Of a DNA stretch of 22,963 bases, positions 1-22,722 are shown one piece after another. Position 1 is the stretch's first letter; every line of letters starts with the position of its first letter. Location of the stretch: NCBI RefSeq assembly GCF_000003605.2, contig NW_003151277.1, forward strand, positions 76,059 through 99,021. The letters are read 5' to 3'. The notes below the pieces were generated by a model that saw nothing but the letters and a program-made list of their open reading frames with translations, was not told where the DNA came from and made no database searches. A program made the position numbers and the translations under genes. The stretch is from Saccoglossus kowalevskii. Its lineage: Eukaryota > Hemichordata > Enteropneusta > Harrimaniidae.

Positions 1-146
1 GCATTTTCGGCCTTAAAATGGCCGCTATTCGGCTATCGTTAATCGGATCATGAAAAAAATGCATGTGCATATGTCCCATATAATGTGTGATGTATGAGTG
101 AAGTTTGAACTTAATCGGTCCATGCATGTTCGAGATACAGGTGATC

Positions 147-180
147 ACGGACGCACGGACGCACGGACGCACGGACGCAC
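147..180 (+). repeat. (ACGGACGC)n short tandem tract
   Basis: Four perfect copies of an 8 bp unit lie between the body of the element and its terminal hairpin. The tract is much richer in G+C and CpG than its surroundings. Confidence 0.95.
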
Positions 181-195
181 ACAGGGCAAAACATA

Positions 196-230
196 AGTCC
201 CCGTTTTTGGACTGCGTCCGAACGGGGACT
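196..230 (+). other. Compound terminal hairpin
   Basis: AGTCCCCGTT at 196-205 pairs perfectly with AACGGGGACT at 221-230. Inside, GGAC at 209-212 pairs with GTCC at 216-219 around the triloop TGC. A T-G wobble and two unpaired T on the 5' side join the two stems. It is followed by an A-rich stretch. Confidence 0.85.
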
Positions 231-290
231 AATAATACAGTAAACATAAACCATTAACAGGAGTAATATAAATCACGTAGAATTAAGTAG

Positions 291-1925
291 TAAAGTAGAA
301 TTATGTTTAATCCAACCATTCAATCATTGAGTGTAAAGTAGAATTATGTTCAATCCAATTATTGAGAGTAAAGTAGAATTATGTTTAATCCAACCATTCA
401 ATTATTGAGTGTAAAGTAGAATTATGTTTAATCCAACCATTCAATCATTGAGTGTAAAGTAGAATTATGTTCAATCCAATTATTGAGTGTAAAGTAGAAT
501 TATGTTTAATAAAACCATTCAATCATTGAGTGTAAAGTAGAATTATGTTCAATCCAACCATTGAGTGTAAAGTATAATTATGTTCAATCCAACCATTGAG
601 TGTAAAGTAGAATTATGTTTAATCCAACCATTCAATCATTGAGTGTAAAGTAGAATTATGTTTAATTCACATTGAGTGTAAAGTAGAATTATGTTCAATC
701 CAATTATTGAGTGTAAAGTAGAATTATGTTTAATAAAACCATTCAATCATTGAGTGTAAAGTAGAATTATGTTCAATCCAACCATTGAGTGTAAAGTAGA
801 ATTATGTTTAATCCAACGATTCAATCATTGAGTGTAAAGTAGAATTATGTTCAATCCAATCATTGAGTGTAAAGTAGAATTATGTTTAATCCAACCATTC
901 AATCATTGAGTGTAAAGTAGAATTATGTTTAATCCAACCATTCAATCATTGAGTGTAAAGTAGAATTATGTTTAATCCAACCATTCAATCATTGAGTGTA
1001 CTGTAAAGTAGAATTATGTTTTATCCAACCATTCAATCATTGAGTGTAAAGTAGAATTATGTTTAATCCAACCATCCAATCATTGAGTGTAAAGTAGAAT
1101 TATGTTTAATCCAACCAGCCAATCAATCAATGAGCGTAAAGTCGAATTATGTTTAATCCAACCAGCCAATCAATCAATGAGCGTAAAGTTGAATTATGTT
1201 TAATCCAACCAGCCAATCATTGAATGAGCTAAAAGTTGAATTATGTTTAATCCAACCAGCCTGTCAATGAGCGTAAAGTTGAATTATGTTTAATCCAACC
1301 AGCCAGTCAATGAGCGTAAAGTTGAATTATGTTTAATCCAGCCAGCCAATCAAGCAATGAGCTAAAAGTTGAATTATGTTTAATCCAAGCAGCCAATCAA
1401 TCAATGAGCTAAAAGTTGAATAATGTTTAATCCAACCAGCCAATCAATCAATGAGCTAAAAGTTGAATAATGTTTAATCCAGCCAGCCAATCATCAATGA
1501 GCTAAAAGTTGAATAATGTTTAATCCAACCAGCCAATCAATCAATGAGCGTAAAGTTGAATTATGTTTAATCCAACCAGCCAATCAATCAATGAGCGTAA
1601 AGTTGAATTATGTTTAATCCAAGCAGCCAATCATTGAATGAGATAAAAGTTGAATTATGTTTAATCCAACCAGCCAGTCAATGAGCGTAAATTTGAATTA
1701 TGTTTAATCCAGCCAGCCAATCAATCAATCAATGAGCTAAAGTTGAATTATGTTTAATCCAACCAGCCAATCAATCAATGAGCGTAAAGTTGAATTATGT
1801 TTAATTAAAACCAGCCAATCAATCAATGAGCTAAAAGTTGAATTATGTTTAATCCAAGCAGCCAATCAATGAGCTAAAAGTTGAATTATGTTTAATCGAA
1901 CCAGCCAATCATTGAATGAGCATGT
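291..1925. repeat. Minisatellite array, about 38 units of 33-47 bp, two subfamilies
   Basis: The shared core is TAAAGTWGAATTATGTTYAAT. Subfamily 1 (291 to about 1090, about 20 units) has AGTAGAATTATG and alternates long 43 bp and short 35 bp units. Subfamily 2 (about 1090-1925, about 18 units) has AGTTGAATTATG followed by CCAACCAGC and a variable CAAT run. Its 42-50 bp unit lengths differ mainly by how many CAAT copies they hold. The switch between subfamilies is sharp, through one mixed unit near 1090-1136. There is no coding potential. Collapse or rearrangement during assembly is possible. Confidence 0.97.
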
Positions 1926-2487
1926 TCAATGTAATCAGCCAAAAGAACCTTCTCTTTTCAGTTTGAATTGTGAAATTTATAAATATTTATAAATCTTTAT
2001 AAAATTGAAGGGAATGGGTTTGTTGTGTCTATAGTATAAAATTTCACTTTTTATTCCATCACCAAGCACACATTGACATTTGCATTTACTTTCAGGTGCT
2101 GCTTCATTTTCTATTCCAGTTTTATATATGTTAAACATATGCCGTCTACTAACGCCTCTCATCCGTAATCCAGTCAGAGTCGTAGTATATATAGGCGGCA
2201 GTGAATAAACAAAAAGTTCTATGAACTATCTAAAGTGCTGTCACCTGAGTGCATGTACTTTGAAAGTACACTGACATTGTATATAGTGTGTTGAACGCGA
2301 TCTGGATGATGCTCTTTATAGTGCATTGTATTAGTTTTCACATACTACATTTATAATGCCAATACATTATTCATTTATGAAAGACCTACAATAATCATAA
2401 CCTGAATACAAATATTTTGTTTATACATAAATCACATCCCTTTTTTTTCAACATTGTTGTCCCACTTGAATACACAATTTTGGGGTG
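1926..2487. other. No gene seen; AT-rich spacer with one short palindrome
   Basis: The stretch is AT-rich and unique. The only clear structure is an odd palindrome at 2254-2270, TGTACTTT-G-AAAGTACA. A short reverse-strand frame at 1977-2162 has no recognisable domain. Confidence 0.6.
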
Positions 2488-2489
2488 TA

Positions 2490-2675
2490 CTGTAAAATAC
2501 TTAATTTTAGCTAGAATTAGTTTTTGCTGAAAAGATTTTTTTGGGCGTTTTGTATATATTGACAAGTTGTATGTAAAATATAAGGAGAAAAACGAAATAT
2601 TTTATTTTCACTGAATCATCTATTCAGCAAAAATACCAAAAATAAATTCATAAACAAAAATAAAGTATTTTACAG
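2490..2675 (+). mobile_element. Palindromic MITE, family A, complete copy
   Basis: The ends are CTGTAAAATAC and GTATTTTACAG, flanked on both sides by TA (2488-2489 and 2676-2677). Subterminal blocks read AATTTTAGCTAGAATT on the left and AAATTCATAAACAAAAATAA on the right, an imperfect inverted repeat. The element is 186 bp and has no coding capacity. A TA target duplication fits Tc1/mariner-type mobilisation, which is inference from family knowledge. Confidence 0.8.
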
Positions 2676-2922
2676 TATTAGGCTACATTTTCTGTGTGCA
2701 ACAGTGATAAAATCTAGATTCAATCTGTTACGATCAACTGTGACACAATCTAGTTTTTGCTCAGCTGTTAACACAACGTCTGTTGAGGCCATTTTTTTTA
2801 TTTTCATTAATTTAAGCGTTCATTGGAGGCTTTCAGCTGGTGATATGATAATAATAATAATAATAACTTTTGGTTGAGAGTAGTATAATTTTTTTGCTGA
2901 AATTTACCCTGTGTGTGTTATA

Positions 2923-3124
2923 CTGTAGAATACTTTATTTTCGCTTGGAATTTATTTTTGCTATTTTCGGGATGATTCCGTGAAAATAAAATCCAGCGAA
3001 TATACTTTTTTTCTTATATTTCACATTCAAATCATCAAAAATCAGTGAAAATAAATTCCATACAAAACGCCCAAAAAGCCTTTTCAGCGAAAATCAATTC
3101 CAGCGAAAATAAAGTATTCCACGG
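2923..3124 (-). mobile_element. Palindromic MITE, family A, inverted copy
   Basis: It begins CTGTAGAATACTTTATTTTC and ends GAAAATAAAGTATTCCACGG, with TA on each side (2921-2922 and 3125-3126). The internal ACAAAACGCCCAAAAAG is the reverse complement of the CTTTTTGGGCGTTTTGT-like block in the copy at 2490, so this copy is in the opposite orientation. It is about 200 bp and non-coding. Confidence 0.8.
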
Positions 3125-3126
3125 TA

Positions 3127-3562
3127 TTTTGGGCAATTCAATAGAATATACATATGTAGTCATGGCCAATATATTAATTAATTGCACTGGGAAATGCATG
3201 TAGAGATTACCAGAATACAAACTAGTAATAGGAACTTTAAATGTCAATCAAATCCCACCATGACAAAGTCACAAGCATCATGCAGTTGATTGCACAATAC
3301 AATAGTAGCCTTTGATTATAGTGCACCTAACCCATATTTCGGCATAGTCAAGGTCATGTACGTTTACATGGGATTCAAACAATTGAACTTCTCAATTGGT
3401 ACATGTACACATAGTATCCAACTAGTACATACATGCACAACAAAACCTCATTGCATGTTAAACACATTGCAGAATATTTATGTAACATTTTTTCTACGAG
3501 AAGAGTTTGAGCTGACTTCTGACTGTTTGAGGTGAAAACAGATTTTACCTCCATGATTTAAA
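3127..3562. other. No gene seen; unique AT-rich spacer
   Basis: Two overlapping short frames (3035-3247 reverse, 3290-3535 forward) have no recognisable domain. The first lies mostly over the MITE. I see no repeat or RNA gene. Confidence 0.5.
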
Positions 3563-3720
3563 CTAGTGTAAAATAATTATGCTGGAATTCATTTTTGCTC
3601 AAAGATTTTTTTTTTTTTTTTATGAGTTGAATGTAAAATATAGGGGAAAAAAGGTATATTCACTGGATTGTACATATTATCCCTGAATCACCCATTCAGC
3701 GAGTATTTCACAGAATTTTA
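3563..3720 (+). mobile_element. Palindromic MITE, family A, decayed copy
   Basis: It keeps the block order of the copy at 2490: GTGTAAAATAATTATGCTGG, TTTTTGCTCAAAGATTTTTT, TTGAATGTAAAATATAGGGG, then TGAATCACCCATTCAGCGA. It has lost the GGGCGTTTTG block and a clean right terminus. Confidence 0.7.
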
Positions 3721-4005
3721 TATCTTAACATTTTATTGCTGTATACTGACAGAAATGTTATTTCTAAAGATGCAATAAAACATTATTATTATTATACATC
3801 ACCGCGATGCCATAATGTACAGTATGCCGTAATTTTGCAGTATTGCACTGGGTATTTTCATCCTACAATATTAAGACACACATATGGAATGATTATGACC
3901 ATAAGCGTCCTGTAATAATAAAAACAAACATGGCTGCTTCACTAAATCTGTTCTAAACGTTTTGGATTTCGGCATTTCCATGATGTATCCCTGGGAGGAA
4001 AAGAT
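3721..4005. other. No gene seen; AT-rich spacer with short TTA repeat
   Basis: It contains a short ATT/TTA run near 3783-3795 and no supported gene. Confidence 0.5.
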
Positions 4006-4163
4006 GTATAATAATAAGGCTATTACGAGGATACAGCAAAGTATGCATTCAGACTGTATGTGAACACATCGACCTCTGCTGCGTGTCGGTCGATACTCCT
4101 GCTGTACTGTCTTCACACATACTTTGCAGTATTCTCGTAATAACCTCATATTATTATAATCAT
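4006..4163. repeat. Long foldback (inverted repeat) of about 158 bp
   Basis: The left arm core at 4021-4045 and the right arm core at 4118-4142 match as inverted repeats at 23 of 25 positions (TATTACGAG, then ATAC, then GCAAAGTATG). Outer AT-rich pairing extends to about 4006 and 4163. Near the apex ATCGACC (4068-4074) pairs with GGTCGAT (4088-4094) around a 13-base loop. It could be a small foldback MITE or a hairpin-forming transcript such as a microRNA-like precursor. No target duplication is obvious. Confidence 0.75.
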
Positions 4164-4165
4164 TG

Positions 4166-5117
4166 GAATTGTGAACATGATATATTTACCCACACTCGCA
4201 CACACACACGTTTCCCAATGAAATAGAGTTGCAATTAAATTTGTTGCAAATCAATTGAACTTTAATTTGATGTTAAGATTAGAGTATTAAAAAGAATACG
4301 TATGGAATACCAACCTAAAAACCTACCAGTAATATTAAAATCAAGTAAAATTGTGATGTAATACTAAAGGTAGGCTACAATGACTTTTACCATGTACCTT
4401 TATTGCATGCTGTTGTACACAAACTCTACATAAAAAAGTTTGGTCACTAAACTACTTTTCATACATTTCGTACACACGTTGGTTTCTATGGTAAAAAGAT
4501 TAAATCATATCTGAAAATTTTGCTTACATACATATGGCACTTATGGTTTCCACAAATTATTGAAAAATTTAATTATTTATTTTGTTATGAAATAATACTT
4601 TAACATGAATTCTTATTGAAATAGTTCCAATAAAAGGCCAATTCTGGCATGTTTTCAGAGAGTCCCTCGCCCAATAAGCCCAAAGCTTGGAGACTTGTGT
4701 TTAAACTACATGCATATAATGCTTTTGAAACAAAAAAAAAACATGATTATATTTTCACTCTTATTTTAATAAAAATGTCTGGGAACAACCTCAAATTTAA
4801 AATGTTGAATGTAAAATTGAGGAGCCTCTAAAATTGGCTTCACTTTTATTACATTGGCTTAATAACTAATTCATTTTTGGTTTCAAATACCCCAGGAAAG
4901 TGTTCTAGGTTCTCGAACTTCTTGGTGTAATTAGGCGTTCGTATGCAAGAGTTTTTTCCACACAAAAACACTGAATTCGGCCGAATTTTGTTATCGGTTG
5001 GCTAAATATGACCCCAACTGATCGTATTTTGTAAAAGATTGGTATTTTTGTCCCGATTTGTAGGAATCTAAAAAACGCATTTCACAACTTGTCTCTTATT
5101 TAGTTTTATGCTGCATT
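4166..5117. other. No gene seen; AT-rich unique sequence
   Basis: There is a short CA run near 4196-4210 and nothing with coding character. The forward frame at 4649-4831 is Lys/Asn-rich because of base composition and has no domain. Confidence 0.5.
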
Positions 5118-5130
5118 CAAAATGGCGGCC
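5118..5130 (+). promoter_or_regulatory. YY1-like site CAAAATGGCGGCC
   Basis: The string matches the animal YY1 consensus core AAnATGGCGGC. No transcription start or gene is recognisable nearby, so it may be chance or part of a decayed repeat. Related AAATGGC strings occur in repeats at 1-40 and 17540-19030. Confidence 0.25.
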
Positions 5131-5186
5131 CCCCCATATAGTAAATATTGTATTTATTTTATTATCACGTGTGTGCCAGCTGACTG

Positions 5187-5662
5187 TTGTTTTTGAGCCA
5201 AACTAAAAGTTGTTTTTACATTACTTGTGCATTATGTATCAAATTCAGATTTTATACTGAAGTGGAAGAGTACGTCGAGATACATGGATGGAAAACTTGA
5301 TACTAACGCTTTGATTGACTTTGCTGCAGTTTGAAAATGACGACTGTTATTATGTCTGAAATGAGCGAGGGGTTGACATTTTCGACAAATTTAAAATTTC
5401 GACAAATACCCAACTTCCAATTTTTTAAATTACTGAAAATAATTACAATATAAAAAAATAAAGAATGGTTTCTGTATACTACGCACGCTAGAAAATACTT
5501 GCAATTCACCATGCTGACAACCCATATAAAATAGTAATCACAAACCACGCACCCGTCAATCAAGTGGCGCCAACAAGTCTAGATTGGGCAAAGACCAAAG
5601 TGTTTTGCAAAGTTGCAAGTCATTTTGCTAACTGACTGTCCGAATAATTCTCAGAACGGCTG
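5187..5662 (+). mobile_element. Damaged copy of the TA-flanked TIR element (fuller copy at 13084-14751)
   Basis: It is colinear with 13475-14751 from TTTTGAGCCAAACTAAAAGT to the right TIR ending GAACGGCTG, followed by TA. The left TIR and about 390 bp next to it are missing. A block of about 45 bp inside the PB1-like frame and about 30 bp just after that frame are also absent. It lacks the nested element at 13820-14560 and so shows that position uninterrupted. It reads GAAAATAATTACAATATAAA, then AAAATAAAGAATGG. Confidence 0.85.
5234..5357 (+). pseudogene. Broken PB1-like reading frame inside the damaged TIR element
   Basis: This is the counterpart of the frame at 13517-13708. It starts at the matching ATG and reads MYQIQILY, then meets TGA at 5258-5260 where the other copy has CGA (Arg9). 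That is a C-to-T change at a CpG. Further on about 45 bp is missing, removing most of the helix and the following strand, and several substitutions follow. It cannot encode the domain. The tail GTTTGAAAATGACGACTGTT still aligns with the end of the intact copy. Confidence 0.65.
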
Positions 5663-5733
5663 TAAAGTTCATATTGTAATCTAGTTTTGTTCAGCTGTTC
5701 ATATGCTGTGTTACGAGTGTGTCAAATATAGTA

Positions 5734-5935
5734 CTGTAAAACCATTTATTTTCACTGGCATTTAACTTCAGTATTTTAATGTATTGAGCATATTCACTGT
5801 GTTTTGTTTTCATACACTTGGCAGAAAAACAATGAGTTCTATTTTTATTTTACATGTTCACATGCATTTAATTTTAGCAGATTTTATTTATCAGCAAAAT
5901 TAAATCAAAGAAAGTATAGAAAGAACTCTATTATT
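5734..5935 (+). mobile_element. Left end and probable decayed body of palindromic MITE family B
   Basis: CTGTAAAACCATTTATTTTC followed by ACTGGCATTTAAC, preceded by TA, is the inverse of the end at 20128-20197 (CCAGTGAAAATAAATGGTTT). The remainder is AT-rich with weak internal symmetry (TTTAATTTTAGCAGATTTT) and no clear right terminus, so the end coordinate is approximate. Confidence 0.5.
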
Positions 5936-5984
5936 AGAGACACAGTAAAAATAATTCAAAATTACTTGTACATGAGATATTGAT

Positions 5985-6690
5985 GAAAAAGCTGAAAACT
6001 AATTATGTAAATCAGGTAACTAATATGAACAGAACAGAACAAAAATATTATGAATTATTATGCTAATTAGAGAATTAATATGAACAAATTTTAACTCAAA
6101 ATTAATCAGGTCTGTCTATTGTCCTAGAGCATTTATGTACCAAATTTTATTCAAATGTGATGATCAGTAATTGAGATATCAGTGTTAATTATTTATGTTA
6201 ATTAGGTGATTAATAAGCATGAATATTAAAAACCCTAAAAACTATCAGGTCTGTGTAGTGTCCTATGATATCTATTTACCAAGTGTCATTAAAATGTGAT
6301 GATTACTACTTGAAATATCAAAAGCTGAAAATTAATTAATTATGCAAATTAAGTAATTAATATGTACTGTTATTACCCTAAAAACTACCAGGTCTGTGCA
6401 GTGTCCTATGATATCTATGTACCAAATTTCATTGAAATGTGATGATTAGTACTTGAGATATCAGTGGAAAAGCCGAAAATTGATTACCTAATCATTATGC
6501 AAATTAGGCAATTAATATTGCACAGATTTATACCCAAAACTAATCAAATCTGCGCATTAGTTTGGAGCATCTATGTGCCAAGTTTCATAAAAAATCAATG
6601 TATGGTTCTCGAGATGTCAGTAGAACGGACACACAGACACACTAACTGCAAAGATTCCCTTTTTGTGCTTCGCACACAGGAGTCAAAAAT
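5985..6690 (+). mobile_element. Non-coding dispersed element with ~150 bp internal units (tract-and-hairpin type)
   Basis: Four degenerate units begin near 5985, 6180, 6320 and 6470. Each has a TTAATTATGCAAATTAGG-like block, an ACCAGGTCTGTG block, and ACCAAATTTCATTGAAATGT followed by TTGAGATATCAG. The last unit passes into a CGGACACACAGACACAC tract at 6626-6642, then a hairpin at 6653-6684 and an A-rich tail. No coding potential is seen. Internal repeats of this size recall the bivalve 'pearl' type of non-autonomous element. That comparison is from memory and not tested. The left end is not defined. Confidence 0.7.
6653..6684 (+). other. Compound terminal hairpin, decayed outer stem
   Basis: The inner stem TGTGC (6664-6668) pairs with GCACA (6672-6676) around the triloop TTC. 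The outer stem GATTCC (6653-6658) pairs with GGAGTC (6679-6684) through one wobble, with a small internal loop between the stems. It lies 10 bp after the GGAC-type tract and is followed by AAAAATAG. Confidence 0.65.
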
Positions 6691-8161
6691 AGTGAATAAT
6701 TAATGTATTTATAGTATATAAAAAATCCATGCAAAGATTTAATGAAATATTACATTAGGCCATAGACCGCCCAGTCTACAATAATACGGTAGTACATTAG
6801 TCCAGCGAAGTCAAATTCATTTTGATATTTTACACACAAACTGATTAAAAAAAAGTTGAGCTATTCCATTGGTGCATAAGGTATATATGGTAAGTACATT
6901 GATAACAGTATTACAAATACAAAGTTCACAGCGTCCCATCTGTAACTGTGTACATAGCACTAGTACATTCTGTGTGTATGTGCACAGAACCACCTACGCA
7001 CACACAGCTCACACGTACCTCAAATACATTTTAACAGGTCATCAGCATATTAAAGAAAAAACTGTTTCATTAATCATGAAATGTTTCTGGGTGAGTCCAT
7101 CACCTTGCAATCACAAGGGGTGCGAGACATATCTTTTTCCCTTGGTTCGTCAGCCAGCAGCTCACAGACATTCAAGTCTAAAACTGTGTGATCTCCAGCT
7201 CATCCATCATTATTGAATGAATGAAGTGTAATGGAATTTATTTAATGGAATGAGAATATAGTGACTGAGTATTGGAAGGTGTACCAAACATAGTAAATGG
7301 TATAACCCACATTGGTAGGGTCTGTAGTTGACATGTATTTTTCTAGTATCACTGATGATGCACTACATTGGGTGATTCCATTTAAAGACAGGGATGTTCC
7401 CACAGTACAATGTCCTTACTATGACCGTAATATGGTACAACAGGACCTCATGACTAATTATAGCATGGGTTCTGCCAAACGAAAGCAGAGATGGATAAGG
7501 TGGTGCTAACCTATATCAATAAGGTAGCACTAAATCTACATATTTCAGTGATGTTTTTCGAATACAGTTAGGTCAATATTAAATTAACCAACAAATCACA
7601 TAGATTATCCAAAGCATTTCAAAAAGCCATGAATGTCTTTTATATTTAAATATTTATAAACATTACATTAACTTTGAATAAAGCATGAAAACTGGACCTG
7701 AGAGCTATAGACAGTTCGCTTATAGTTGTAACTATTGTCAGAGTAGACATCCTAGTGTATCAGGGATTTAAGTACTGTTTTTTTCTGAATTGATATTATT
7801 GTCAAAACGTGTGAGAGTTACAATGCCTCAGTGAGGCATCACAGCCATGCCTCTATTAATGATTAATGAGAGTTTTTCCCTGGTATTTTTTGACAAGCTG
7901 TTAGACTCAGATAATATATTGATAATACTGGAGAAAAACATTTTAATTAGATGATAATTATCTAATAATGAATTGGAATGCAATGTTACAATGTCCAATA
8001 AATTTGTTGATACACATTTTCTGATGAACTATTGTTTTGAAATGCTAGTCATCCATAGTGTGCACTCAATTTTGTGTATACATTCTGCACTGAATCACAT
8101 ACATGTATAACCAGAATTAAAACAGTCTTTCTGTGCCCCACCTGATTTGTCCCTTAATCCC
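6691..8161. other. No supported gene; unique AT-rich sequence
   Basis: Two forward frames (6869-7216 and 7312-7509) have no recognisable domain, no close partner exon and no conserved motif. A perfect 7 bp hairpin ATGCCTC-AGT-GAGGCAT lies at 7823-7839, with a further ATGCCTC at 7847. No mobile element termini are seen. Confidence 0.5.
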
Positions 8162-8184
8162 AATGCAGTGCCCTTTGCATGACC
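8162..8184 (+). repeat. 23 bp direct repeat, copy 1
   Basis: It matches 8318-8340 at 22 of 23 positions (AATGCAGTGCCCTTTGCATG against AATGCAGTGCCCTTTCCATG, then ACC in both), offset 156 bp. The DNA between the copies is unique by eye. Confidence 0.8.
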
Positions 8185-8317
8185 TTCAATTCAATTACAA
8201 CCATATCTAGGTGTGGTCAACAAAGTTACAAATGAAAGCAGATAGCAAGAAAGCAGCCTGCCTCTCCCCAGATCATTTTAAATGGTATGTCCCTGTAGTC
8301 TATGTCAGTTAAGTGGT

Positions 8318-8340
8318 AATGCAGTGCCCTTTCCATGACC
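8318..8340 (+). repeat. 23 bp direct repeat, copy 2
   Basis: Partner of 8162-8184. The single difference is C for G at position 16 of the repeat. Confidence 0.8.
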
Positions 8341-9381
8341 AATATATTTCCTGTTTGTGTATTTTTACTTATCATGGTGAAAACCTGCACACATCAGCAA
8401 TTTATTGTCATAATAGTGGCATAAAAACACTACTGTACAAATCACATATATCCAATATGTAGTGCATAAGCCAAAGAAATACACAATTCAACCAGAAATA
8501 GATCAGAGCTGTTCACAACAGTTAGATTTGAAAGGAACTGAGCTGTAAGATACGGTCCTGAAAATTAAAGAAGATACATACAACAAGAAATAAATAACCA
8601 TCATTCTGACTGTGCGCAGGGCTACTTTAACAGTCACTGCGGGATCAATATGTTTATAAGACAGACAAATGAGAAAACTGCTTCCCTAAGCTGGCTGTGT
8701 CTCGTAATTAATTATCATGCATAGCAGTTGTACAGACAGTACAGAAATACACCAAGGATACTGTGACACCAGACAGTGGTGAGACAGCCTACATTCAATC
8801 CATAAACATTTACACTATTAAATGTCAATGCACTTTGGGTATGAGCAACCTAACATGAAAATAAACCAGAAATAAACTGGCTGTGAATGCTACAAAATTT
8901 CAAATTATATTAAATTGAAACTCATACAAATGTTGTTTCACCCTTTTCAATCTATAATTGTATAATAGTTATTTATAATCACAATGTGACCTGAACATGA
9001 CCCCCCTTCCTCCACCAACACTACCAACAATAAAAATAAATAAATCTTCCAAGTTTCAACAACAGCTCAGCTGAACTACTGTCTGGATAGTTCTACAAGC
9101 ACAGAAAACATTGCAGACTTTTACAAGTACCCGGTAGCTGACACTACCAAGTATCAGTGGAATAATCTAAAAAGATATCTAGGTTGACTCATGCAAAATT
9201 GAGCTTACCCCCCCCCCCAGCAAGATAATGAACCAATCCAGTTATACAAGTCATAAGGTCATCATAGAAATCTGGAGCACCAAATAATGACTACACAGCA
9301 GGATCTAGGTATGCATGTATTTTGTTGATTTAGTCCATTGTTACCAGGGTTACGTTGAGGGTTACATCCTGTGGTTATGTC
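8341..9381. other. No gene seen; unique sequence with a poly-C run
   Basis: A run of about ten C near 9209-9218 is the only notable feature. No frame, RNA gene or terminus is supported. Confidence 0.5.
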
Positions 9382-9425
9382 TACTGTGCATTATTTCAGC
9401 TGCAATTCATTTTTTGCTGAAAACA
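9382..9425 (+). mobile_element. Fragment of MITE family A, left end only
   Basis: ACTGTGCATTATTTCAGCTG, then CAATTCATTTTTTGCTGAAA, follows the left end at 2490 and 15207 block by block. No matching right end follows. Confidence 0.5.
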
Positions 9426-10057
9426 CAGAACGAGCCCTTCCAGCAATGACCTGCCCCACCCTCAATAAATAGTGGACTGTTCAGTTTCAGCAGACTTAAA
9501 ATGGCCTTCCCCAGGGCAGGTAGTTTTCAGTTGATATTGCTGCATTTTAACTGATAATGGTACAAGTCAAACAATGTAAGATAGTGGGGTTTTCAATGCA
9601 AACCCAAGTTTAGGATTTAACATTTCAGGATAAATAATAGTATATCAGAAAATCTCTCATTCTAAGCCTCACCTATTTAAAGTGGTTTGGCCCAGACCTA
9701 CATATGGTAATTTGTTGGCAATGAGTCACTGATATTAAAAGGGATTACCAGGCTATTCAGATGAAATAGTGGGTTAGTCAAGACAGAAATCGGTCAAACC
9801 AATTCCTGTGAGGTAGAACAGGGTCAGCCGAGTTAACAAAAGAAGTCAAGTTTGCTTGATGTGGGCTATGCGTGTTTGATCTGGGTCAATTCCCACAGAA
9901 CTAGATCTCAAAAAGAGATCTTCTCGGGCAACTAGGATTACATGGATTTCTGTTCACACTCTGTTGTCCTGGTTAGTTTGTGTGTTTCAACTGTCACATT
10001 TAGACTGCCATATCTCACTGATGTCTGTGGGCAGTATGAAGGAAAAAATCATTCTTG
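9426..10057. other. No gene seen; unique sequence with one hairpin
   Basis: AGATCTC (9903-9909) and GAGATCT (9915-9921) form a perfect 7 bp stem around AAAAA. No T-run follows, and nothing marks it as a terminator. Confidence 0.5.
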
Positions 10058-10081
10058 TATATATATATATATATATATATT
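10058..10081. repeat. (TA)n microsatellite
   Basis: Twelve TA-type dinucleotides run in a row just before an AT-rich stretch that leads into repeat units at 10185. Confidence 0.95.
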
Positions 10082-10184
10082 TATTTTATGTAAATTAACT
10101 TAGATTATATTACTTTTGTATGTCATTTTGCAAAATACACTGAACTATAAAATATTTTCAACAAATTTAGCTGTGTGTCAAAAA

Positions 10185-10435
10185 CAAAAACATTCACCAA
10201 AATTAGAGAATCGATAGTATTGTCACAAAATGAACAAATCTGACAGCAGTCTGCATAGGGTATCTACATGTACATATATCAAAGCAATCATCTAGTCAAA
10301 AATGACAGAAATATTCACTGAAATTAGAGAATTATTAGATTATTGTCATGAAATATAGAAAGTTGATAATATCATTTTTTCCACAAAATAGCAACCCTAT
10401 TCACTAAAATTAGAGAATTAAACCACCAGAGGTTC
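10185..10435 (+). repeat. Three degenerate units of the family nested at 13820-14560
   Basis: The diagnostic block TTCACCAAAATTAGAGAAT recurs with TTAGAGAAT at 10203, 10324 and 10410. The intervening ACAAAATGAACAAATCTGA block matches 14060-14085. Spacings of 121 and 86 bp are shorter than in the fuller copy, so the units are internally deleted. No GGAC tract or terminal hairpin is present, so this is an internal fragment. Confidence 0.75.
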
Positions 10436-11979
10436 ATTTATAGCAAATTTGAAACCCATACATCCTTTTTTTAACAACAGACAATCAGTAATATGAATAC
10501 CGATACATTCCGTCTGTTTTCACTACAGCAGGGTGAAAAAAAAAATTATTATTTTTTTTTTTAATCGTGTATTTTTTTACACAGGTAAATGAGTAGATCT
10601 CGATACTTGAAAGATTTTATATTTTCGTTAATGTATTTGCAAAAAAATAAATAATGTACTCCTAATAAATGCTGGTTATTGCACAGTATGTTCTTGACAA
10701 ATATCAATATGCAGGCACACATTTGACGTATGTTATATTTTTTTTATTATAGGTCTTTATATAAAATTACTGGCTTGTACGGCTAAAAGTGGAGCTGCCC
10801 GGAGCAATTTGTACAGATTATTTGTTTAAGAGCTACGTTTTCTCTGTCATGAATCAATCTTGTCACATAGCAATTGAATAACAGACTCAGCATTTCAAGT
10901 AGTTTCAAATTATGTATATCAGTCGTCAAACACGTTTTCATCAAACATGCATATTAATTAATTATTAATACCAACATATATTTTATGCCAAATTTATGGA
11001 GCAGCATTTTGTAATTTTGTTTGTACATATTTCTATAATTTCTTTATTATTTTTGGGGAAAAAAACAGGCATTATTTCTTGCATTGCGATTGTTTGGAGC
11101 ACATTTTGTGATTGAATGACAGCTATAGAGAAATTGAATTCTAGATAACCTGTTTTAAACAACAAAATATTAGCATGAATTGATTTGTCTTATTCAAAGA
11201 ATCAAACACAAGATACTGTATGGTATACTGCATGTACAAGATGCTTCAAATTACAGTGCAACAGATCAGTCACGCCATGCCACGTTTAAATTTAGCATAT
11301 AAAAAGCACTATTTTATAGGCGTTGATACATTGTATGTGAATTATATTGAAAATTAATTAACGAGTAAAATCGTATTTGCTTTACGAGAATTTCACTATA
11401 TGTTTGGTATATGCACAGAAAAAATGAAATATGTTTTTGTTCAACAACCTCTCATCAAAACTTGAACAGACATATTGAAAGTGAAATGGGTGTATCAGAA
11501 TGTGCATCAAATGTTTATACTGGCATAGTTGCAAGTATTCCTCACGTTTTCATTAATTGTGGCACTATTGGCAAATACATATACTAGTAATAATTTATTT
11601 TGTTTATAAGTCAACAGCCTGCACCACAAACGTAAGCAGCATGAGTAATTACAGATGACCTCAAATTGTCCTTTGAATTACCAAGCTCACATGGTGCCCT
11701 GTCAGGTTAAAACAGTCAGCTGAAGTTCAATGATATATATAGCAGTGACCTCTAATTGACACCATAGGCTAAAAGTTCAATATATTTGTATCATCCTCAT
11801 CACCAGCACTGCAATTGTTTTTGAAGGTTCAATAAAAAGGTAACGGGAAGGTGGCATAGACAAATATCAAACAATAATTTGTGAGGTGAAAAATTACCAA
11901 CTTTCATCAACAAACATTGAAAGTAATGCATTTTTTGTAGAAAGAGAAAAAGAAAATCATTCAAGAATTATAATATGCT
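10436..11979. other. No gene seen; AT-rich unique sequence
   Basis: There are several A or T homopolymer runs (10537-10562 and 10740-10746). A short reverse frame at 10983-11165 has no domain. No termini, tandem repeat or RNA gene is visible. Confidence 0.5.
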
Positions 11980-12347
11980 AAGCTGGCTACCCCACACCGA
12001 AATGGGATGATCCACACTATGAGCTGACTACCCCACTCAAAAATGGATTGACCCAGACTATGTTGAGCTGACAGTCCTACTAAAAGATGGATTGACCCAG
12101 ACTATGTGAGCTGACAGTCCTACTAAAAGATGGATTGACCCAGACTATGTTGAGCTGACAGTCCTACTAAAAGATGGATTGACCCAGACTATGTTGAGCT
12201 GACAGTCCTACTAAAAGATGGATTGACCCACACTATGCTGAGCTGACAGTCCTACTAAAAGATGGATTGACCCACACTATGCTGAGCTGACAGTCCTACT
12301 AAAAGATGAATTGACCCACACTATGTTGAGCTCACACTATGTTGAGG
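11980..12347. repeat. 44 bp minisatellite, about eight units
   Basis: The unit is GAGCTGACAGTCCTACTAAA followed by AGATGGATTGACCCAGACTA and TGTT. Starts lie at 12021, 12065, 12108, 12152, 12196, 12240 and 12284. A divergent first unit begins near 11980, with GCTACCCCAC in place of ACAGTCCTAC, and a truncated unit begins at 12328. The last units share CCCACACTATGCT in place of CCCAGACTATGTT, so divergence is graded along the array. Confidence 0.97.
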
Positions 12348-13081
12348 TTTTGTTGATGGTGATTCTGGGGAATAATTTTCAAAGAGTCCCACATGAAAGA
12401 AAACAAAAATTATTCGGATTACCATTACCTTTACAATAAATGAACGATTGTCATGCCACACAAGTGCTAGAATTGTTTAACCTTGACAGTCTCTCCTTAC
12501 TCATTGATCTGCCCAACAATTAATGTTGACTATTTTGGTAATATTTTGCACTGCATTGTGGGCAAATTTTATGGTAGCGAAATAGGAATCTCTGATTAAC
12601 ATTACATAATGTAAATTATATTGTGTTCTTCATTGACCTAATGCATCAGGTACGCAATTTCAGTTATGGATGACCATTTCACAATTCCAACATACAAATA
12701 AATAAATATTATATATCTATGAAATATGATCATTATAGAATACAATTAATATATAATTAGCTGCTTATCATTGGTTAAATACAATGAAACAATTTAATGC
12801 ATTTTAAATTTTCAACTACCGGTATAGTGACTATTTTCCACATCAATGATGCAAAAATTACCATTTATTCTCTGCAAAATTTGTTAGAAATGACCACATA
12901 GATAGAGTATCTATGATGAATGACAGGGTGATATAGGTAAGTAATTCTATTGAAAGACTTTTACATATTTTTAGACAATCCGGCAACTTGTACACGCTGA
13001 CCAGGTGAAATTATAGAGAATTAGAAATGGAAAAATCTGTATATACCTCTGTAACAACATAACGCATGTTGGCAAATGCCT
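12348..13081. other. No gene seen; AT-rich spacer up to the TIR element
   Basis: The sequence is unique by eye. No frame, terminus or RNA gene is supported. Confidence 0.5.
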
Positions 13082-13516
13082 TACAGTCGTTCTGAGAATT
13101 ATTCGGACAGTCAGTTAGCAATATATCTAGAAACTTTGCAAAACACTTAGATCATTTCCAATCTAGACTTGATGACGTCGTTGTGCACCCGCAATTGGGA
13201 GCATTCCACTATCTTGCTAGATGCAGGTAAAACGCTGTTTTTAAAATGACACACGTTGGATACCATACATTAACAGGTTATATGTTGTATATGCATTCAA
13301 AGTGTTATTTTAAATCGGTATAACTATCTGAATCCACCTGACATAGCACAATTTGCAAACAAAAACAAAAAAAACTGAGTGTTGAGTAACCCCAGGTATT
13401 AATGAACTTGTCATAGGCGGGAAGGCTCAAAGTAAAGTTTCTTAGCATTGGACGCGCTGCAGTTTCGCGACAGTTTTGAGCCAAACTAAAAGTTGTTTTT
13501 ACATTACTGGTGCATT

Positions 13517-13708
13517 ATGTATAAAATTCATATTTTATACCGAGGTGGGAAAGTGAGTCAGGGTTACAAGGACAGAAAACTTGATTATAACGATTTGATG
13601 GACTTTGTCAAATCAAAAGTGCCTTCCTTGAGCAAATCACTTTTTCAACTGCAGTTTAAAAATGACGAGGGTATGATGACCGTTATTATGTCTAGTCCAT
13701 TTTTGTAA
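13517..13708 (+). CDS. PB1-domain-like short reading frame within the TIR element
   Basis: The frame gives 63 residues from the ATG conserved in the second copy; an upstream ATG at 13493 adds eight residues. The order fits a PB1 fold (a protein-protein interaction domain of scaffold and kinase proteins): strand YKIHILY at residues 2-8 with a Lys at residue 3, as in basic-face PB1 domains; a Gly-Gly turn at 10-11; a second strand; a helix around LDYNDLMDFV at 22-31; then FQLQFKNDEGMMTVIMSS at 43-60, resembling the strand-acidic loop-strand (OPCA) region with D50, E51 and G52. PB1 domains are usually 80-90 residues. The last helix and strand are missing because a stop follows, so this is either a first exon or a fragment captured by the element. 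The PB1 call is by eye; function is unknown. Confidence 0.4.
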   Translation: MYKIHILYRGGKVSQGYKDRKLDYNDLMDFVKSKVPSLSKSLFQLQFKNDEGMMTVIMSSPFL

Positions 13709-13819
13709 CAGGTACAACTGACTAAAATGAGCGAGGGGTTGACCTTTTCGACAAATTTAAGCAACACCCAACTTGCGATTTTTAAAATTACTGAAAATAA
13801 TTACAATGTAAATATAAAA

Positions 13820-14560
13820 CAAGCAGCCTCTCGGCTGAGATAGCTCCGCTGTTAGCGATGCACATTTAATTAAAGAACAGAAGATATCATTAGAAAATGA
13901 ACAATATGGATAGTATCAATGCAATGGGACTTGCTGTTTTCAACAAGAATTCAAAAATATCATTTTTCACCATAAATGATTGTGGTTTTTAACAAGAAAA
14001 AAATATCACTTTTTACCAAAAATGACAAAAATATTCACCAAAATTAGAGAATTGACGATATCATTACAAAATGAACAAATCTGAGAGTGGTCCACATGTA
14101 CAAAATGTAGTACCTATATATGTAATATCAAAGCAATTGGACTTGTGGTTTTTAACAAGAAGTTGAAAATATCACTTTTTACCAAAAATTACAAAAATAT
14201 TCACCAAAATTAGAGAATTAAAGATATCATTACAAAATTAACAAATCTGAGAGAGGTCCACATGTAGTACCTATATATGTAATATCAAAGGAATTGGATA
14301 TGCGGTTTTTAACAAGAAGTCGAAAATATCACTTTTTACCAAAAATGACAAAAATATTCACCAAAATTAGAGAATTGAAGATATCATCATGAAATGAACA
14401 AATCTGAGAGAGGTCTACCCAAGGTACATATACACCAAGTATCAAAGAATTCAGGCTTGTAGTTTTCAAGAAGAAGTCGAAAAAGTAAAACATTGACACG
14501 GACGACGACGGACAATCACTCATATGATAAGCTCTGCTCGACAAAGTCGACAGCGGAGCT
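13820..14560 (+). mobile_element. Nested non-coding element with ~160 bp internal units (tract-and-hairpin type)
   Basis: The insertion is defined by comparison with 5187-5662, where flanking DNA runs on without it. Near the left end TAGCTCCGCTGT matches the reverse complement of the right end. The left end also has CGCT-GTT-AGCG, a triloop hairpin. The body holds units marked by TTAGAGAATT at 14044, 14210 and 14367 (spacings 166 and 157 bp), each with AACAAATCTGAGAG and AATATCAAAG. It ends ACACGGACGACGACGGAC (14495-14512), a hairpin at 14530-14560 and A6. Any target duplication is hidden in flanking A-rich DNA. There is no coding potential. Confidence 0.8.
14530..14560 (+). other. Compound terminal hairpin of the nested element
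   Basis: The outer stem AGCTCTGCT (14530-14538) pairs with AGCGGAGCT (14552-14560) with one wobble. The inner stem CGAC (14539-14542) pairs with GTCG (14546-14549) around the triloop AAA. A two-base bulge, AC, lies on the 3' side between the stems. It is followed directly by AAAAAATAAA. Confidence 0.85.
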
Positions 14561-14753
14561 AAAAAATAAAGAATGGTTGCTGTATACACATGCTAGATAA
14601 TACTTGCAACCCCTATGAATTAGTAATCCCAAACCAAGCGCCCGTCAATCAAGTGGCGCCGACAAGTCTAGATTGGGCAAAGACCAAAGTGTTTTGCAAA
14701 GTTGCAAGTCATTTTGCTAACTGACTGTCCGAATAATTCTCAGAATGGCTGTA

Positions 14754-15206
14754 AATTATCAATAAACATTAATATTTACCAAATTCCAAGTAGAAATATT
14801 GTCAAGTAGTCTTATATGAGCCGTGTTTTAGTATCTATGAAGAAGTCACCATTTTGAATTGCGTGCATCTTGCAATCAGATCATTGGATATCATGAGTGG
14901 GATATGAAAAATATCAAATGGGATGTATCACATGAAACGGACATGATACACAGTTTTATTAACCCTTGATTTTGAGGTATGAACACAAGATCATAGATGC
15001 AGTCATAAAAAGCAGTCATAAACGTTTGATTTACTGACATCTCCAGAACTTGGAGGTAAATTCTACGACGCAATGTAACTTAATCATCTGAACAAATATC
15101 AACATAAAAAGTGCATGATTGTATTCTTTTAAATCCCAGCTTTCTGACTACATATATACTGTCATAGTTACATGCTTAATAACTGTTAATAATCACAATT
15201 ATACTA
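14754..15206. other. No gene seen; unique AT-rich spacer
   Basis: A short reverse frame at 14891-15073 has no domain. No repeat termini are seen until the MITE. Confidence 0.5.
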
Positions 15207-15396
15207 CTGTAAAATACTTTATTTTAGCTGGAATTAATTTTTTCGCTGAAAAGACCTTTTTGATATTTTGTATGGAATTTATTTTCACTGATCCTTGACA
15301 AGTTTAATGTAAATTATGGAAAAAAAAATATTTTCACTGAATCATTCCTTCAGCGAAAAATAGCGAAAATTAATTCCAAGCGAAAATAAAGTACTT
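15207..15396 (+). mobile_element. Palindromic MITE, family A, right end eroded
   Basis: It begins CTGTAAAATACTTTATTTTA after TA and carries TTCGCTGAAAAGACCTTTTT, TTTATTTTCACTGATC, TGAATCATTCCTTCAGCG and AATTCCAAGCGAAAATAAAG. The expected right end GTATTTTACAG has become GTAC followed by a T run. Confidence 0.8.
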
Positions 15397-20197: not shown

Positions 20198-20470
20198 ACA
20201 AAAAAATCAAATATTTTGAAAAGCAATAAAATTCAATGCTGTCAGACATTTTCACTGACTCCCTTGTCTTATGAGACCCAGTTAAATTACCACCTGAATC
20301 AAGGCATTTTTTTATCAAAGAGCAACAATCAGTGGTGATTACAGACACATGCACCCAATAGTACTGGTACTTAAGAAAGTATAACAATTATTAACAAGTC
20401 ATTGTCAATGACACAGTCCCCGTCATGTTTTTCGTGACTTTGTCAAATAATGAAAAGCATAGTCAGATTA
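20198..20470. other. No gene seen; short spacer
   Basis: AT-rich, with no termini until TA at 20469-20470, the flank of the next element. Confidence 0.5.
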
Positions 20471-22171
20471 CAGTACTCATTCCGCCCAACCTCCTGCTTT
20501 TATCGCTTTTTTTTCCCCGACCGCTTATCACTTAATTTCCGACCGCCTGCTGCTTTCCGACCGGAAACCAACCGCTTTTTTTCCGCTCGCTCGCTTGCTT
20601 TTGTTCACTCGCTTGCTATTGCTGGCTTCACAAACATCGTCCGCTTGCCAACCGACCGCTAGAGTAACGATGATTGTACATTGTATCTATAAACTTATGT
20701 TTTTATTCGTAATAAATTTAGGTTTTAATGACGATTCAAAATACAACGTGTATTGCTTCTCTGTATTGGGAAGAGGGACAAAGACGCCTTCAAATCACTT
20801 GACACATTGTAATGTTTGCTACGCAATCGAACTGTGACCTGTATTTACATATTTACGTCCTTGTGTGTGTAGTTCAAGCAGCTATATAACTGGTCAATCA
20901 ATTGTGATATGTATTGAGTACTAGTATTTGTGTGTTGTGTGTGTGTTTCTGTGTGTGATTTTGACTAAATTTATTCCAAACGACTCTCAAAATAATTTTT
21001 CATGCAAACTTTGTCAATGGTTCCCCGACACTGATTCCTTTTTAACTTTCAATTTTTCCAAGACGCGGCAAACCCTGCTCAAGACCGGAGACGTCGTTGA
21101 GATGCAGGCGCTATTACTCTTCGCAACGCGTTATATTTATTTCCAACACGTGTGGTTGGCGCCTTTGATTGCGTTTATTTTGTTCTTTTATTCACGTAAT
21201 CTATCACTGGCGTTTGTTTTGTCGCGTCCCACAACTTAATGTCCAAGCTGATTTTGTTTTGGCTGTAATTGAACTATGTACAGCTCATGGAAGTATTTCG
21301 CCCAGAGTTCGCAAAACGAAATACCCTGCAAAATTGAAATCTTTTATTTTATAACAAGACATTGGGGGCAAAAATAAAAACCATAATTGTAATTCAACAA
21401 GTTTATGTAACGGGTTAGTCCGCTTGCCAGCCATCTATTTAAAAAACCGCGATCTCCATTGATGTCGGCTTCGACAACTTCGAACAAGTAAGCTGGGCAC
21501 TGGCTAACATTACATTTGTGAGTATTGTATTTGTTTGACAAATTGTACAGTCATTCTATAACAATCGATCGGTCGGGTTTTTTTCACAGTCTTACTATTC
21601 CTGCAGATATTCTTCAATTGTTAAAGGTGCCACGGATTTACATAACTACAACTTGACTCGTGTTAAACCCAAACCATGCGTGCATGGCAACCATCATCCT
21701 ACACACGGTTACTCGGCGAATACCATACTCTACAATAGACATTTTTCGCTCTCCACCAAAAATAGATGGTTTTATTTCATATTAGTTGTGTCTGTGTCAG
21801 TGCCATATTTGATTTCACATGTTTGTTTCGATCTTGTTTATGATGGTGGACATTATTACTACGCGTATGTATTATTACCAATTTTATATGGCAGTGTGAT
21901 CCACCGTATTTTTTCAACGGTCGTTCTATAAATTTCTGATTGTATTTATTCTTATTTTAACATCATAAAACTAAAATGACACACTTGTACATGAAACAAT
22001 AGATAATGAACTGTAAATGCGGGCGGTTGCGCTGTCAGGCGAGCTAGCAAGCGATTGAGTGAGCGTGCGAGCGGATACGTCCAGATTTGCGTGGTCTAAT
22101 TGAACAAAGAGAACGAAAAGTAAGCGATCGAAATCCAGAAGTGGGCGGGAGGTTGGGCGAAATGAGTACTG
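20471..22171. mobile_element. 1.7 kb TA-flanked TIR element without recognisable transposase
   Basis: The left end CAGTACTCATTCCGCCCAAC and the right end (reverse complement CAGTACTCATTTCGCCCAAC) match at 19 of 20 positions, with TA just outside both (20469-20470 and 22172-22173). Weaker inverted similarity continues inward to CCGCTCGC (20583-20590) paired with GCGAGCGG (22067-22074) and a GCTTGCT block. The left arm carries CCGACCGC-type strings at 20517, 20539, 20557 and 20652, possible transposase-binding repeats. Internal frames (20450-20662, 20595-20837, 20928-21239, 21169-21354, 21344-21541 and 21653-21931) have no catalytic motifs I recognise, so the element looks non-autonomous. Its arms are clearly richer in G+C than the window. 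Confidence 0.8.
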
Positions 22172-22207
22172 TATATTTAAATCTTGGGATAGTATTTAGC
22201 ATATTAG

Positions 22208-22722
22208 CACAATGCTTGATCAATAATTAACATGCACACTGGTGCCATCAAGTTCACATTACTTTCACTGATCATGCACGCTGTGGTGCCATCAAGTTCA
22301 CATTATTTTCACTGATCATGCACACTGTGGTGCCATCAAGTTCACATTACTTTCACTGATCATGCACGCTGTGGTGGCATCAAGTTCACATTACTTTCAC
22401 TGATCATGCACGCTGTGGTGCCATCAAGTTCACATTATTTTCACTGATCATGCACACTTGTGCCATCAAGTTCACATTACTTTCACTGATCATGCACACT
22501 GTGGTGCCATCAAGTTCACATTACTTTCACTGATCATGCACACTGTGGTGCCATCAAGTTCACATTACTTTCACTGATCATGCACACTGTGGTGCCATCA
22601 AGTTCACATTACTTTCACTGATCATGCACACTGTGGTGCCATTAAGTTCACATTACTTTCACTGATTGGTTAATTAAGATTCATAGAACACAATGCTTGA
22701 TCAATAATTAACATGCACACTG
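22208..22722. repeat. 44 bp minisatellite (ten units) bounded by 34 bp perfect direct repeats
   Basis: The unit is CATGCACACTGTGGTGCCAT followed by CAAGTTCACATTACTTTCAC and TGAT. Starts lie at 22231, 22273, 22317, 22361, 22405, 22449, 22491, 22535, 22579 and 22623. Two units are 42 bp and the rest are 44. Variants alternate CACACT/CACGCT and ATTACT/ATTATT. The 34 bp at 22208-22241 (CACAATGCTTGATCAATAAT, then TAACATGCACACTG) recurs perfectly at 22689-22722, and the second copy leads into a truncated unit. Confidence 0.97.

Follow-up and report, generated by a model that had tools for sequence, protein, structure and literature searches.

The 22,963-nucleotide stretch of the Saccoglossus kowalevskii genome analyzed in this work (contig NW_003151277.1, positions 76,059 to 99,021; hereafter, the window) contains three dispersed hairpins of compound design, and the question that they raise is what ends at these places and whether its shape is kept while its sequence changes. 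An initial annotation had placed the hairpins at 196-230, 6653-6684 and 14530-14560, and all three are found there. Our results indicate that they are very probably the 5' ends, on the minus strand, of three non-autonomous rolling-circle elements of the Helentron type (HINEs, DINE-1-like), whose single-stranded 5' fold would serve as the start site for Rep.

Layout and orientation of the elements

Elements 1, 2 and 3, belonging to families 1, 2 and 3, show the following features in the window:

1..235, minus strand: element 1 (family 1), visible part; 76 family-1 alignments cover 1-244
146..180, minus strand: element 1 microsatellite of GTCC/GTGC type (CACGGACG on the plus strand), from Tandem Repeats Finder (TRF)
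196..230, minus strand: element 1 5' hairpin, with outer stem AGTCCCCGTT/AACGGGGACT (subterminal inverted repeat, subTIR, and inverted repeat, IR), inner stem and triloop; from folding and family copies
5903..6689, minus strand: element 2 (family 2), eroded, left boundary approximate; 240 family-2 alignments cover 5892-6700
6105-6466, minus strand: element 2 143-bp tandem repeats (TRF)
6653..6684, minus strand: element 2 5' hairpin, outer stem GACTCC/GGAATC, inner GTGC GAA GCAC; from folding and family copies
13819..14565, minus strand: element 3 (family 3), both ends present; family alignments cover 13802-14573
13825..13836, minus strand: element 3 3' palindrome (AGCC GAGA GGCT), then the GCTTGT end; from family 3' ends
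13841..13852, minus strand: element 3 3' subTIR (ACAGCGGAGCTA on the minus strand); a motif shared by 23 of 30 family-3 loci
13978..14483, minus strand: element 3 central 157-bp tandem repeats (TRF)
14499..14513, minus strand: element 3 short GTCC/GTCG tract (GGACGACGACGGAC on the plus strand), from sequence
14530..14560, minus strand: element 3 5' compound hairpin; from folding and family copies
14550..14561, minus strand: element 3 5' subTIR (TAGCTCCGCTGT), the 5' arm of the hairpin; from sequence comparison

Related copies were sought in the whole eukaryotic assembly (572 Mb, 4830 contigs). First-look candidates for elements 3, 2 and 1 numbered 1611, 954 and 1885, with 40 scored each, and DNA searches with the ends of the same elements gave 44, 40 and 41 scored matches, respectively. 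For each of families 1-3, 30 loci were examined, the window copy counted among them; more than 50 N were present in 8, 18 and 5 of the 30 loci of families 3, 1 and 2.

On the 5' side, similarity among the copies stops at a T-run, and all 30 loci of each family have different outer flanks; the hairpin therefore lies a few bases inside the element end, and the proposal of the initial annotation that these hairpins mark mobile-element termini is borne out. T makes up 83-100% of the letters at 14 of the 15 positions -1 to -5 of families 1-3, the exception being position -3 of family 1, mostly A. The A-rich run noticed after each hairpin corresponds to the terminal T-run of the element seen from the opposite strand, although element 1 has only TAATAA there. 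In all three families the T-run is followed by the 5' subTIR, the paired IR, a GTC-type or GTGT tract and, near the 3' end, the 3' subTIR. The IR is complementary to the 5' subTIR over 10, 7, 9 and 8 bp in families 1-4. In the reference ends of families 1, 2 and 3, those in which the two subTIRs were compared, the 5' one has 10, 11 and 12 consecutive bases, respectively, in common with the 3' one. The GGAC-type tract described at 10-18 bp from the hairpin lies at 15 and 16 bases in elements 1 and 3, but element 2 has one GGAC at 22 bases, then ACAC/GACA, and the family-2 tract is mainly GTGT/GTCT.

The 3' subTIR was located in 23/30, 9/30 and 13/30 loci of families 3, 1 and 2, and the missing ones are not to be taken as absences, since the script reached ~1.5 kb per locus and many loci are rich in N. 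Beyond it, the 3' palindrome is clear in family 1 (z -2.5), modest in family 3 (z -1.3) and not significant in family 2 (z 0.1). HINEs insert in T-rich sequence without duplicating the target site; in families 1-3 T-rich 3' flanks were seen in addition to the T-run 5' ends.

Oyster HINEs are described with a 5' subTIR, an IR and a microsatellite on the left and a 3' subTIR and a palindrome on the right (PMC7492417), and DINE-1 with a subTIR, an IR and a 3' stem-loop (PMC4067079, PMC2374699). Because the order of T-run, subTIR, IR and GTCC tract matches this published left module, with the 3' subTIRs at the other end, the hairpin end is the 5' end and lies on the minus strand, an orientation that had been misread. 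Nor is it a new terminus: DINE-1, HINE and oyster elements have been described with this subTIR/IR pair. As in HINEs (PMC4067079; Cg_HINE of Crassostrea gigas, PMC7492417), the subTIRs measure ~11-15 bp, the IR is complementary to the 5' subTIR, a GTCY-type microsatellite follows the 5' end, and central tandem repeats, terminal T-runs and, in part of the families, a palindrome past the 3' subTIR are present. The window elements are ordinary HINEs.

Three other assignments were rejected. For the hairpins as Helitron-like 3' ends, the order of the left module and the 3' subTIRs at the opposite end decided the matter. Canonical Helitrons have 5' TC and 3' CTRR ends and an AT target site, whereas the 5' ends found here are a T-run followed by AG or GA and the 3' ends are CTTGT or TTGATT. 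In a miniature inverted-repeat element of a terminal-inverted-repeat transposon the inverted repeats would be located at the very ends, next to a target-site duplication, whereas the 3' inverted repeat found here lies ~18-23 bases inside the end in families 1-3.

Element 3 reads, on the minus strand, T-run, subTIR, inner hairpin, IR, GTCC tract, 157-bp repeats, 3' subTIR, palindrome AGCCGAGAGGCT and GCTTGT, with TAGCTCCGCTG at 13841-13851 and its inverse copy at 14551-14561. It interrupts a copy of another repeat, of which a paralogue at ~5190-5670 is empty, that is, without element 3; the comparison gives no obvious duplication, in an A/T-rich site that leaves single bases undecidable. Elements 2 and 3 contain tandem repeats between their two ends, and element 1 is cut off, its 3' part being not recoverable because the contig reads N at 71000-76058, to the left of the window. 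One open reading frame (ORF) of at least 60 aa overlaps each element (82, 79 and 86 aa), and none of the three matched a Pfam family at E 0.01, so that the window copies agree with the lack of coding capacity of HINEs.

Elsewhere in the window, a family-1-type 3' end lies at 20396-20427 (AACAAGTCATTGTCAATGAC, then the subTIR-like AGTCCCCGTC), with no matching 5' end seen in the window, and tandem units of the family-3 kind at 10179-10422, with no adjoining end recognised, are probably a truncated copy.

Shape and letters of the 5' hairpin

A fourth family was found by way of places carrying a GTCC tract. The 5' ends of the four families, given as references on the element strand, are:

family 1: AGTCCCCGTT-CGGAC-GCA-GTCCG-AA-AACGGGGACT
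family 2: GACTCCC-G-TGTGC-GAA-GCACA-AAAA-GGGAGTC (the last outer-stem C is a chosen reference, copies having C or T there about evenly)
family 3: AGCTCCGCT-GT-CGAC-TTT-GTCG-AGCGGAGCT
family 4: AGCCTTCG-CAGAC-GAA-GTCTG-C-CGAAGGCT

In all four, an inner stem of 4 bp or more closes on a three-base loop, and the ends follow a common frame: a T-run, then AG or GA, a C-rich outer arm, the letters C-NNN-G at the triloop and CTTAT or CTTTG past the hairpin. The stem sequences had been called unrelated, which is half right: the letters differ, but they do so within this frame, and 9 to 18 of the 27 core letters are common between families.

Each hairpin was folded as single-stranded DNA and compared with 200 shuffles. 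The compound fold claimed for all three window copies holds for element 1 (z -5.1, 1/200 shuffles as good) and element 3 (z -4.1, 0/200), but element 2 is weak (z -1.2, 24/200) and its best fold differs from the compound hairpin. The references of families 1-3 gave better folds (z -6.6, -3.1 and -6.0) than their window copies, and that of family 4 had z -6.2. The wobbles of the window copies look like decay, a perfect compound hairpin being present in 24 of 30 family-1 and 25 of 30 family-3 loci, but in only 8 of 30 of family 2. One inner-stem base of element 1 and one outer-stem base of element 3 are unlike those of most copies of their families, and the outer stem of element 2 has one mismatch on the minus strand.

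Patterns made for the ends matched the genome 614, 541, 852 and 12 times for families 1 to 4, numbers that are not comparable as copy numbers because the patterns differ in length and free positions; reversed control patterns gave no matches in the genome. In 100 listed of the 614 family-1 matches the loop letters were GCA (39), GAA (26), GTA (14), ACA (7), AAA (5), GGA (4) and others (5), and the freed inner pair was G-C (91), A-C (4), G-T (3), A-T (1) or G-A (1); this pattern is no test of loop length, which it had itself fixed at three.

The tract was also used as a starting point. Twenty places were taken, in listing order, from the first 100 of 199 GTCC-tract matches in the genome, skipping three (on C294, C601 and C653) already in the set or listed as family 1. 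By eye, they comprised ten family-1 ends (L107 eroded, L099 with a damaged inner stem), two of family 4, two of another design and six without such an end. The pattern GTCTGTCC matched 31 times at 24 distinct places, and the ten matches inspected gave one eroded family-2 end, one family-4 remnant, six of the other design and two without an end.

A repeat with the common stretch ACATGTTAGRATACATGTC before GTCC-type tracts accounts for eight of these 30 tracts (L096, L103, L114-L117, L121 and L122); its design differs from the T-run/subTIR one.

Looking for further families, a tract-plus-stem scan and a compound-hairpin scan with any loop size revealed no recognisable new tract-bearing end in the collected loci, the 60 most G+C-rich of 171 other rows of the latter having been inspected; its loop-size tally is not used as evidence because known families and nested counting dominate it. 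Three end patterns, including one for DINE-1, were without an exact match in viral contigs.

Covariation was counted between families on a core of 27 columns (12 pairs, 7 in the outer and 5 in the inner stem; 8 distinct rows from 4 families), from which the eroded L107, the damaged L099, the remnants L113 and L118, the eight tracts of other design and the eight without an end were left out. A MAFFT alignment was not used for counting because it misplaced family 3. In this core, 99.0% of 96 cells pair, compared with 29-48% in alignments slid as controls, and 11 of the 12 pairs changed on both sides. Compared two by two, the family references differ at 4 to 9 pairs, each time in both bases of the pair, and four of five measures exceed all 500 shuffles. 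Between families, pairing persists while letters change, so that this part of the initial proposal stands; the signal is carried by the between-family comparison only.

Start site, binding site or chance

On the grounds of Helitron biochemistry, the transposon strand, once single-stranded, would fold at its 5' end into the compound hairpin; the Rep (HUH) nuclease of a partner Helentron would recognise this fold together with the subTIR, nick in the T-run and start strand transfer, which the 3' subTIR and palindrome would end. Founder lineages would then have to maintain the two arms in concert with the 3' subTIR and dead copies would decay freely, which would be the reason why compensation is seen only between families. 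Our reading is that the shape is kept in founder lineages, and that dead copies decay singly. A partner of the expected kind may exist in this genome: Helitron_like_N matched six places, and the one examined (L092, 1195-6128, minus strand) carries, in order and in long open frames, a Helitron_like_N ORF (961 aa), a PIF1 ORF and an Exo_endo_phos ORF. It is of Helentron type because the set of Rep, helicase and endonuclease is what defines Helentrons (PMC4067079).

Several observations weigh against the overall explanation. L092 yielded no compound triloop hairpin by script, and its flanks no family end by eye; since its ends did not turn up, this candidate autonomous partner is not tied to families 1-4. 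Among the 30 GTCC-type tracts inspected, 8 lay in a different repeat design and 8 had no such end. Family 2 fits poorly, with a perfect hairpin in only 8 of 30 loci and a 3' palindrome no better than chance (z 0.1). The fifth between-family measure, further pair types, was reached by 258 of the 500 shuffles; besides, there are only four, partly alike families with few independent changes, the core was aligned by structure and rows within families are not independent. Compensation among copies of one family, the check that the initial annotation had itself put forward, is essentially absent, with 3 double changes (2 Watson-Crick) against 37 single-side ones in 30 copies of each of three families: 5 single and no double changes in 450 cells of family 1; 27 single, one compensated and one uncompensated double in 360 cells (5 gaps) of family 2; and 5 single and one compensated double in 390 cells of family 3. 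Stem sites even change more than unpaired sites in families 2 (0.043 vs 0.033) and 3 (0.009 vs 0.000), and slightly less in family 1 (0.006 vs 0.008). In Helraiser the letters of the loop matter, whereas here they vary.

The outer stem, moreover, could covary merely because one protein-binding motif recurs in three places. The hairpin would then be a by-product: the subTIR would be a double-stranded transposase site, required in both directions at the 5' end and in one copy at the 3' end, and a single protein would make the arms covary. We regard this as possible though rather unlikely. The 3' subTIR does repeat part of the IR (9 consecutive bases in family 1, 6 in family 2 and 9 in family 3); however, the inner stems CGGAC/GTCCG of family 1 and TCGAC/GTCGA of family 3 are absent from the 3' ends compared, for which reason we favor folding, and in each of the four families the inner stem is paired around a loop of three bases. 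A variant, in which the palindrome is a double-stranded site for a dimer with a 3-bp centre, may also apply.

That the structure acts as RNA (a transcript end, processed or like that of a short interspersed element, or a terminator) and not as single-stranded DNA seems very improbable. RNA follows identical base-pairing rules and the hairpin adjoins a T-run, but this run, of only ~5 bases, is on the 5' side of the hairpin in the element strand; no Rfam family reached its gathering score in the window, where ARAGORN detected no tRNA either, and two-ended elements with subTIRs and an empty paralogue fit DNA-mediated rolling-circle movement. Chance palindromes at the ends of unrelated repeats are hardly credible, even though element 2 folds no better than many of its shuffles: families 1-3 have hundreds of pattern matches each, with flanks differing among the loci inspected, the references of families 1, 3 and 4 fold well beyond their shuffles, and the between-family covariation has to be accounted for. 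From the base composition of each spacer, an inner stem of 4 bp or more closing on three loop bases would arise with a probability of 0.022, 0.008, 0.003 and 0.021 in the four families (0.3-2.2% per family), or of 0.060, 0.029, 0.005 and 0.048 when all loops of 3 to 8 bases are allowed. Multiplied, these values give 9e-9 and 4e-7, which exaggerate the strength of the evidence, since the families are related and the design had been noticed before it was tested.

Related systems and other repeats of the window

For DINE-1, compensatory change and a structure kept despite sequence change had already been suggested (Yang and Barbash 2008, PMC2374699). The DINE-1/INE-1 elements of Drosophila have, like those described here, a subTIR, a partial IR beside the 5' subTIR, a GTCY microsatellite, species-specific central repeats and a 3' hairpin, whereas their 13-bp subTIR has another sequence (PMC2374699). 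In the oyster, 1-12 bases are reported between an 11-12 bp subTIR and the IR (PMC7492417), whereas the spacer between the outer arms measures 13-18 bases here and includes the inner triloop stem; possibly, the two counts describe one and the same structure. Of the details of these ends, only the inner triloop is one for which no description was found in the accessible parts of the Helitron, DINE-1 and HINE literature searched.

In Helraiser, the left end is essential, the transposase cuts single- but not double-stranded ends and the 3' hairpin is a terminator; when the stem letters of this hairpin are exchanged ~90% of the activity is retained, which is not the case when its loop letters and closing pair are altered (PMC4778049). 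The tolerance of stem exchange means that a hairpin read by its shape has a precedent in the superfamily, although at the opposite end. Helraiser and canonical Helitrons resemble the present case in the one-strand mechanism, the HUH Rep plus helicase, the essential left end and the exchangeable stem of the 3' hairpin, and differ in their TC and CTAG ends, AT target sites and a hairpin described only at the 3' end (PMC4778049, PMC5876387).

DINE-1 is the repeat with the highest copy number in Drosophila melanogaster, molluscan and sea-urchin elements like DINE-1 have been mentioned, and biochemistry was considered necessary by those who described these elements in 2014 to show how they move (Thomas, Vadnagara and Pritham, PMC4067079). 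The hairpin, with its outer arms tied to the 3' end and its inner triloop, is a concrete, testable substrate for this purpose, and the four families are ready-made natural compensatory mutants. The 5' end of Drosophila melanogaster DINE-1 would also fold an inner 4-bp stem with a three-base loop, for which our searches gave no confirmation. Bivalve pearl/CvA and sea-urchin Tsp elements have a short tetranucleotide tract and satellite-like repeats between two conserved ends. It is tempting to speculate, with more doubt than confidence, that Helentrons start at a compound hairpin whose inner stem sits on exactly three bases, a 5' origin read mainly by shape and diverging in step with the 3' subTIR, which would have been kept from DINE-1 in flies to the present genome, family specificity residing in the freely exchangeable stem.

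The window also contains other repeats. An array with units of ~43-47 bp occupies 282-1921 and starts ~45 bases past the end of element 1, and two separate arrays of 44-bp units lie at 22231-22666 and 11981-12336 (~10 and ~7 copies). Inverted copies of an A/T-rich, partly self-complementary fold-back repeat are present at 2931-3126 and 15205-15393. Finally, 29-bp inverted arms at 20469-20497 and 22145-22173, 93% complementary and ~1.65 kb apart, resemble the terminal inverted repeats of DNA transposons.

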